From NCBI GenBank assembly GCA_000585075.1, contig JEMY01000026.1, positions 16,335 through 80,334 of the forward strand: a DNA stretch of 64,000 bases, written 5' to 3'. This DNA is from Candidatus Accumulibacter regalis. Lineage in GTDB: Bacteria > Pseudomonadota > Gammaproteobacteria > Burkholderiales > Rhodocyclaceae. Below, in pieces: positions 29,004 to 64,000 of the stretch (positions are counted from its first letter, which is position 1; each line of letters starts with the position of its first letter). Below the pieces are notes generated by a model, which was not told the DNA's origin, did not search any database, and was given only the letters and a program-made list of their open reading frames with translations. The translations under genes were made by a program, and so were the position numbers.

Positions 29004-29148
29004 ATCCCGGCTACGCCTCCTCGCAATGACGTGCACGCTGCTGTGGCGCTGCATTTCCGACGCGACTTTCAGCGCGCCGGACAGCCCGCCTGAAACCATG
29101 TCGCCGCCAGCATTCTCATGTTCCCTACTGCGTGCAACAGTGCACTAG
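29004..29148 (-). repeat. Interspersed repeat copy (TAGTGCACTGTTGC end plus GTCATTGCGAGGAGGCG module)
   Basis: Minus strand reads CTAGTGCACTGTTGCACGCAG..GGAACATG...GCTGAAAGTCGCGTCGGAAATGCAGC...GTCATTGCGAGGAGGCGTAGCCG; resembles copies at 51812 and 63871. Confidence 0.75.
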
Positions 29149-50954: not shown

Positions 50955-51809
50955 ATGGACTATCGCAAGGAATTCGTCGTCAACCCCAGGAAGAAGCTCA
51001 AGCTGGCCAGGATCGACCCGGTGCAGAGCGGCGGGCACGCCTCGAACGAGGCGGCGCAGCCGGAGATCACCAAATACGTTACTCGCATGGCCGAGTTGCA
51101 GGCGCTGCTCTACGCCAACGCCGACCAGTCGCTGCTGGTCGTGCTGCAGGCGCTCGACGCTGCCGGCAAGGACGGCGTCGTGCGTCACCTGTTCAGCGGC
51201 ATGAATCCGCAGGGGACGTCGGTGTTCGGCTTCAAGCAGCCGAGCGCCGCCGAAGCGGCGCACGATTTCCTGTGGCGCGCGCACCAGCGAACGCCGGGCA
51301 AGGGCGAAGTGGTCGTTTTCAACCGTTCCCACTACGAGGATGTCCTGGTCGTGCGCGTGCACGGGCTGGTCCCCGAATCGGTGTGGTCGAAACGCTACGC
51401 GCTGATCAACGACTTCGAGAAGCTGCTTACCGAGAACGGCACGCGCATTCTCAAGTTCTTCCTGCACATCAGCCCCGAGGAACAGCTCGAGCGTTTCAAG
51501 CAGCGGCTCGACGATCCCGCCCGCAACTGGAAAATCAGCGAGTCGGACTACTCGGAGCGCGAGCTGTGGCCGCAGTACGTCGAAGCGTATGAAGAGGCTC
51601 TGGTCAAGACCAGCACCGCGCATGCGCCGTGGTACGTCATCCCGGCGAACCACAAGTGGTTCCGTAACCTGGCGACTTCGCAGATCATCGCCGAGACGAT
51701 GGAGGAGATGAAGCTCAAGCTGCCGCCGACGCGGGTGGACCTCGAAGACGTGCGCCGCAAGTACCACGCGGCGGCCGCGGCGCAGGAAAAGCGGAACGGC
51801 AAGGGCTAG
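50955..51809 (+). CDS. ppk2: Polyphosphate kinase 2 family protein
   Basis: LDAAGKDGVVRHLFSGMNPQGTSVFGFKQPS; VVFNRSHYEDVLVVRVHGLVP; PWYVIPANHKWFRNL. Confidence 0.95.
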   Translation: MDYRKEFVVNPRKKLKLARIDPVQSGGHASNEAAQPEITKYVTRMAELQALLYANADQSLLVVLQALDAAGKDGVVRHLFSGMNPQGTSVFGFKQPSAAEAAHDFLWRAHQRTPGKGEVVVFNRSHYEDVLVVRVHGLVPESVWSKRYALINDFEKLLTENGTRILKFFLHISPEEQLERFKQRLDDPARNWKISESDYSERELWPQYVEAYEEALVKTSTAHAPWYVIPANHKWFRNLATSQIIAETMEEMKLKLPPTRVDLEDVRRKYHAAAAAQEKRNGKG

Positions 51810-51811
51810 CG

Positions 51812-52184
51812 TAGTGTTGCGCGCAGAGTGGAACATGGACATCCCCGCCACCGCGGGGCTTGCGCGCGGCTGTCGGGCTGGCTGAAAGCCGCGTCGGGAA
51901 GGCGGCAACACGCCAGCCCGCTGGTCATTGCGAGGAGGCGCAGCCGACGCGGCAATCCAGTTCCCTCCTCTTGCCATCTTCCGCCGCAGCGACCGCGCGA
52001 AGAGCAAGACCTCTGGCTTGCCGCGTCGGCTTCGCCTCCTCGCAATGACGGTGTGGGGCATGAGCGCCGTGGATGGCGACGACGGCCGCCCCGGCATGGG
52101 CGCTGCGAATTTCAGCCAACACCGGGTTTTCGCCCTGCTTTCGGCAGACCCAAAAAGTCGCATCAAGAACGCAACACTGCACTA
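51812..52184. repeat. Composite repeat: TAGTGTTGC left end, two inverted 37-nt GTCATTGCGAGGAGGCG modules, GCAACACTGCACTA right end
   Basis: 51924-51960 and 52013-52049 are inverted repeats matching at 35/37 by eye; outer ends match the other copies. Confidence 0.8.
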
Positions 52185-52188
52185 GCAT

Positions 52189-52345
52189 AGTGTTGCAGGC
52201 CGTATGGAAGCTAGAGATGCCGGCGACGACATCGTTGCAAGCGGCTGTCCGGCTTGCCGGAAGTCTCGGCGCTCATGCGGCGCCCAGCCGGGTTGCCCGC
52301 GGCCTTCAAGCTTGCGCAAGGTCTGGTCAAGAACGCACGCTACGC
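52189..52345. repeat. Degenerate second copy of the TAGTGTTGC repeat
   Basis: TAGTGTTGCAGGCCGTATGGAAG...GCGGCTGTCCGGCTTGCCGGAAGTCTCG...CAAGAACGCACGCTAC; right boundary approximate. Confidence 0.55.
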
Positions 52346-62925: not shown

Positions 62926-63858
62926 ATGAGATTCATCAAGTCCCGCGTCCTGCTCGCCGGCGCCGCTTCGCTGCTCGCCCTCGGCGCCTGCAACTCCGAG
63001 CAAAAAGCCGCTGCACCGGCAGCGAAGGAAGCCGCCGCGCCGGTGGTGCAGGAAGACGCCGTGGCGACCGTGAACGGCACCGCCATCACCAAGGCGCGTG
63101 TCGACATGATCGTCAAGCAGGGCGCCAGCACCGGCCAACCGGACACTCCCGAAATGCGCCGGGGGATCATCGAGCATCTGACCGCGCAAATGCTGATCGC
63201 CGAGGAGGCGGTGAAGAAGGGGCTGGACAAGATGCCCGAGATCAGCGAGCAATTCGATATGCTCAGGCAGTCGATCCTGGCCAACGCCTATGTCCAGGAC
63301 TTCATCAAGACCCATCCGGTCAGCGAAGAAATGCTGAAAGCCGAATACGAGCGCATGAAGGAAATGGCCGCCGGCAGCGAGTACAAGGCGCGCCATATCC
63401 TGGTCGAGACCGAGGCCGAAGCCAGGGACATCATCGCCAGGCTGAAGAAAGATCCGGCGGCGTTCGAAAAGCTGGCCCGGGAAAAAAGCAAGGATCCCGG
63501 CTCCAAGGCCAATGGCGGCGAGCTGGGCTGGTTTGACACGGGCTCGATGGTGCCGGAGTTCGGCAGCGCAGCCAGCAAGCTGGAAAAGGGCAGCTTCACG
63601 CAGGAGCCGGTGCACACCCAGTTTGGCTATCACGTCATCCTCCTGGAAGACACCCGGCCGGTACAAGCACCTCCCTTTGACCAGGTCAAAGCCGATCTGG
63701 CGCAACACCTGCAGCAGCAACAACTGACGAAACTGCTCGACGATCTCAAGGCCAAGGCCAAGATCGCGATTGTCGAAGCGTCAGCGCCGGCCGCAGCGCC
63801 GGCAGCCACCCCGGCGGCAGCGCCAGCCCCGGCGTCTGCAGGCGCCGCCGGCAAGTAA
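62926..63858 (+). CDS. PpiC-type peptidyl-prolyl isomerase lipoprotein
   Basis: Lipobox LLALGAC; rotamase motif YKARHILVETEAEARDIIARLKK...GGELGWFDTGSMVPEF. Confidence 0.92.
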   Translation: MRFIKSRVLLAGAASLLALGACNSEQKAAAPAAKEAAAPVVQEDAVATVNGTAITKARVDMIVKQGASTGQPDTPEMRRGIIEHLTAQMLIAEEAVKKGLDKMPEISEQFDMLRQSILANAYVQDFIKTHPVSEEMLKAEYERMKEMAAGSEYKARHILVETEAEARDIIARLKKDPAAFEKLAREKSKDPGSKANGGELGWFDTGSMVPEFGSAASKLEKGSFTQEPVHTQFGYHVILLEDTRPVQAPPFDQVKADLAQHLQQQQLTKLLDDLKAKAKIAIVEASAPAAAPAATPAAAPAPASAGAAGK

Positions 63859-63870
63859 GCCCTGCTCGTG

Positions 63871-63976
63871 GTGTAGTGCTGCACGCCGGTTGAAATTCGA
63901 GACTTCCCGCCGGCCTGTCATCTTTTGCGCGGCTTTCGGAGTTGGCGAAAGTCTCGTCAGGAATGCAGCACTACAC
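63871..63976. repeat. 106-bp MITE-like repeat with 13-bp perfect terminal inverted repeats
   Basis: GTGTAGTGCTGCA (63871-63883) and TGCAGCACTACAC (63964-63976) are exact reverse complements. Confidence 0.85.
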
Positions 63977-64000
63977 CCGCCGCCCCACCCCCCCCCCCCC

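Follow-up and report, generated by a model that had tools for sequence, protein, structure and literature searches.

The window, a stretch of 64,000 nucleotides of Candidatus Accumulibacter regalis, carries near its right-hand end a PpiC-type gene followed by a short element with inverted ends. The features of this locus, and the related units located elsewhere in the window, are as follows:

62926–63858, + strand: gene of a PpiC-type peptidyl-prolyl isomerase of 310 aa (PF00639 rotamase, E = 8.1e-22), outside the element
63871–63976, + strand: very probable IS630-type MITE monomer of 106 bp (sequence reading and family model)
63871–63883, + strand: left terminal inverted repeat GTGTAGTGCTGCA
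63933–63951, + strand: short inner hairpin CTTTCG-GAGTTGG-CGAAAG (CTTTCAG..CTGAAAG at this place in other copies)
63964–63976, − strand: right terminal inverted repeat TGCAGCACTACAC, the perfect complement of the left repeat
51809–51913, + strand: second copy of the 105-bp unit (110 bits), first unit of a 374-bp composite
51809–52182, + strand: composite of 374 bp, made up of the unit, a fold-back repeat of ~127 bp and a partial second unit; CTA on the left, TAG on the right
51924–52049, no strand assigned: fold-back repeat GTCATTGCGAGGAGGC...GCCTCCTCGCAATGAC of the composite, about 127 bp
52185–52288, + strand: third copy (58.7 bits), adjoining the composite, with a TA common to both
29040–29145, − strand: fourth copy (81.4 bits), CTA outside its left end

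The initial annotation had described a 106-bp element with perfect 13-bp inverted ends and no open reading frame, located behind a PpiC-type gene and similar to three other copies in the window. Coordinates and sequence proved to be exact, no reading frame of at least 100 aa overlaps positions 63871–63976, the neighbouring gene product has the rotamase domain, and the three further copies are real. The terminal inverted repeats of the window copy match at 13 of 13 positions, which makes it the sole such unit among 56. By our own estimate, about 0.3 perfect 13-bp pairs are expected by chance per 64 kb (spacer of up to 100 bp, 65% GC); since the arms could thus be due to chance, they prove little by themselves, and it is the membership in a repeat family that makes the element real.

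A sequence-and-structure model of the 105-bp unit was built from 12 units of the window genome, including the window copy. In this 4.63-Mb genome the model gave 72 matches at E ≤ 0.01, most of them covering model positions 1–105, so that the element is clearly not single-copy; the window copy, being one of the 12 model-building sequences, matched with E = 4.8e-17. Among the congeners, 26 matches were found in genome G014, ten in G010, nine in G008 and two in G015, and there were none in the other congeners searched or in 11 genomes of other families. The plasmids searched did not contain a match to the element. Scanning GTDB genomes for both exact ends at a distance of 64–94 bases retrieved seven loci in five named metagenome-assembled genomes (MAGs), the hosts including Ca. 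Accumulibacter meliphilus, Ca. A. conexus, one Nitrosomonadales MAG and one gammaproteobacterial MAG; one proteobacterial MAG held three near-identical copies. When 399 Burkholderiales genomes were sampled, 12 of them proved to contain a single exact end together with its CTAG (reversed control, 0), not all of these hits being MITEs. Three near-identical MITEs of 92–93 bp with intact CTAG on both sides were observed in MAG FK1.bin35 (L075, L078, L081), and their sequences point to recent activity in another proteobacterium. The family is short, noncoding and bounded by inverted ends, and occurs in dispersed multiple copies with common boundaries, as is characteristic of MITEs, the usual length of which is about 50–500 bp.

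The ends of the element coincide with the limits of similarity among the copies. Directly outside the unit, exactly at the model boundary, TA was found on the left in 22 of 56 and on the right in 8 of 56 cases, as compared to 0–4 (left) and 0 (right) at the seven next offsets; the low number on the right is explained by the many units that form part of composites, where their right end is an inner, degenerate one. For the same reason, namely that many units inside composites have an inner end, agreement between the left and right flanking dinucleotides of the 56 unit boundaries was weak (p = 0.07 over the whole set, 0.37 with TA left out) and does not count as evidence here. Well-preserved copies are located between two CTAG half-sites, read as C-TA-[G...C]-TA-G. 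The flanks of the seven exact-end loci were CTAG/CTAG (five), CTAC/CTAC (one) and TTAG/CTGG (one), and composites of the window genome are flanked by CTAG/CTAG as well as by the non-palindromic pairs CGAG/CGAG and CTCG/CTCG. Judged from these flanks, C-TA-[G...C]-TA-G is the IS630 pattern of a duplicated TA with preference for CTAG (PMC2170065), at the level of the family and not of the window copy. Tenzen and Ohtsubo are said, by the title of their 1991 paper as listed in PMC2170065, to have described such a preference of IS630 for TA within CTAG. A 4-bp duplication of CTAG, brought about by an IS5-, IS481- or IS701-type parent, had also been considered; the discovery of IS630 genes with these ends led to its rejection, because C-TA-[G...C]-TA-G then is the simpler reading.

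The window copy itself is preceded by TG and followed by CC. The search for target-site duplications proposed in the initial annotation was thus successful for the family, in the form of TA in CTAG, but no duplication is visible at the window copy. A poly-C run to its right (63977–64000 and beyond) ends at a scaffold gap of 15 N (C26:80335–80349), and a second fold-back repeat, with GTCATTGCGAGGAGGC ends, is located 46 bp to the right of the element. This stretch is possibly hard to sequence. The missing TA and the proximity of poly-C and an assembly gap suggest that the insertion of this copy is old or that its flank has been altered.

Empty sites were sought by joining the flanks of two G015 copies with one TA and searching the congeners with the joined sequences. 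The first aligned end to end (394 bases) with G014 at 93% identity, and the second aligned with G017 over 232 bases spanning the junction (86%). Both empty sites are gapless across the junction and each retains a single CTAG, indicating that the two G015 copies inserted as exactly the unit described here; as sequence comparisons, these sites attest to past mobility only. For the window copy, no exact empty site was found at the ppiC homologues of the congeners examined, because the sequences downstream of these homologues are unrelated.

At four of the Burkholderiales loci with an exact end (L112, L113, L116 and L122), an IS630-like gene is located just inside the end. The L116 gene encodes a 378-aa transposase that contains a DDE_3 domain and a helix-turn-helix domain (NCBIfam IS630 NF033545, E = 8.7e-83) and is flanked by CTAG-GTGTAGTG ends. 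Within the genus, Accumulibacter genome G024 contains an IS630 of 1161 bp with GTGTAGTGTTGCA exact at both ends, situated between CTAG sites; its reading frame was reported as two overlapping pieces, so that this copy may not be intact. Compared with this end, the end of the window copy has C instead of T at position 9. A transposase with matching inverted repeats, as called for in the initial annotation, is thus encoded in Accumulibacter G024 and at L116. The window genome contains a relic, from C44:233666 on. It aligns closely to the G024 element over its first ~300 bp, whereas the rest is frameshifted, interrupted by a stop and internally deleted. An intact matching transposase was not found in the window-genome assembly. 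Long single-ended pattern matches, read for transposase genes ahead of the IS630 loci, did not reveal any. In several MITEs, the subterminal bases resemble the IS ends more closely than shuffled sequences do, but for the subterminal arms of the window copy the match is weak (left, p = 0.13, not beyond shuffles; right, p = 0.02). Another IS630 group of the genus, sharing 39% identity, has the different ends GTGTYTAATTGCA. This GTGTYTAATTGCA-ended group is present in G010 in many near-identical copies with CTAG (L135, L144, L148, L150, L152, L154, L156).

An IS630 with the same ends, the TA/CTAG flanks and the empty sites argue that the element was mobilized in trans by an IS630 transposase. We are highly confident that it belongs to the IS630 (Tc1/mariner) superfamily as a non-autonomous MITE, moved in this manner into the TA of CTAG; of the options named in the initial annotation, profile search, target-site duplications, empty sites and the transposase gene with the same ends agree on this one. 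The element would hold only the transposase-binding ends, GTGTAGTGYTGCA and a few subterminal bases. IS630 transposase, supplied in trans, would bind these ends and excise the element at both of them, and the excised element would be pasted into CTAG at its TA, which would be duplicated. The repeat family, its boundaries, the TA/CTAG flanks, the empty sites, the IS630 of the genus with the same ends and the decayed relic are all seen directly in the sequences. We infer that the copies were mobilized by such a transposase and that the window copy reached its place likewise. Since the window genome contains only an IS630 relic, the family probably is immobile there now, unless an intact multicopy IS630 has escaped assembly.

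Half-sites of the GTCATTGCGAGGAGGC...GCCTCCTCGCAATGAC repeat occur 151 times in the window genome, as compared to 0 in the control, and one of them is located to the right of the fourth copy (29015–29030). In many composites, the second fold-back repeat begins 11 bp past the first MITE unit. The outer ends of the composites of 230–390 bp lie in CTAG-like sites, which suggests, on the basis of the sequence, that some composites moved as one element. We tentatively consider it possible, though somewhat short of an even chance, that the composites of ~230–390 bp were amplified as one chimeric element, the IS630-type MITE serving as vehicle for an unrelated repeat, with both families persisting in a genome devoid of the transposase. 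At L036 (1501–2671; G000:C3:12073–13243), three composites with near-identical repeats are arranged in tandem over 1171 bp. On the second fold-back repeat and a CTAG repeat pattern, the literature searched contained no paper.

Like repeats of the REP/REPIN type, which RAYT (Y1 tyrosine) transposases spread with no duplication of the target, the copies are intergenic, multicopy and palindromic, and they have GTAG, a feature of some REPs, close to the end. However, a duplicated TA in CTAG flanks the copies, the empty sites retain one CTAG, and the same ends are found on a gene for a DDE (IS630) transposase; the REP-like option of the initial annotation is extremely improbable and was rejected. 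The surroundings of the window copy are compatible with an origin other than transposition at this place: it may have been brought in when the adjacent GTCATTGCGAGGAGGC repeat recombined or was locally rearranged, or its right flank may be an assembly artefact, as TA is present on neither side and poly-C, 15 N and the fold-back 46 bp on lie next to it. Nevertheless, both ends of this copy are intact and perfectly matched, and many other copies have likewise lost TA on one or both sides; we regard such an origin as rather unlikely.

Whatever its origin, the window copy might be retained because of a hairpin that it would form in the 3'-terminal part of the ppiC mRNA, acting as stabilizer or terminator. 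Its strand folds far more strongly than shuffled sequences do (−55.1 kcal/mol, z = −5.45), its perfectly matched ends are unique among the units, and the pairs of the consensus structure exceed shuffled and slid controls, in an alignment that was itself fitted to the structure. Inverted ends, however, fold by construction; the stem is followed by CCGCCGCCCC and not by a T-run (read by eye), as an intrinsic terminator would require; no such element follows the ppiC homologues of the congeners examined; and none of the matches in an Rfam search reached the gathering score of the respective Rfam family. A role in the mRNA tail is possible but improbable.

The IS630-type MITE may be regarded as a gene-less "parasite of a parasite", which has only the end signals of IS630 and was probably moved by the enzyme of the latter. 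It constitutes a repeat family, present in many copies in Ca. Accumulibacter, that can be tied to a transposase lineage; the host is a key phosphorus-removing organism of sludge. The clean empty sites of the family and insertion polymorphisms are usable as lineage markers. In the literature searched, no published description of this family was found; it is a new one of a well-known kind, with RUP-like architecture, target and proposed mobilizer. IS630/ISY100 elements (Tc1/mariner) move by cut-and-paste, using a DDE transposase and duplicating TA (PMC2170065). TA duplication is common to them and to the element described here, which in contrast is noncoding and one tenth as long. The ISBmu8-like IS630 of Burkholderiales has a transposase 63% identical to that of L116, and one of its ends starts with GTGTAGTG in CTAG; since this end diverges past GTGTAGTG (to CGTCACAAATAATG), it is not a likely parent of the Accumulibacter MITE. 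RUP of Streptococcus pneumoniae is 107 bp long and occurs in 110 copies in strain ATCC 700669; its inverted ends resemble those of IS630-Spn1, by which RUP has been proposed to be mobilized in trans, and are paired in its fold (PMC3049150). Length, high copy number, IS630-type ends and the proposed mobilizer are features of both, a likeness of architecture as described in PMC3049150 and not of sequence. Differing from RUP in the phylum of its host and in forming 230–390 bp composites with a nested second fold-back repeat, the Accumulibacter MITE provides transposon biology with a betaproteobacterial RUP-like system.
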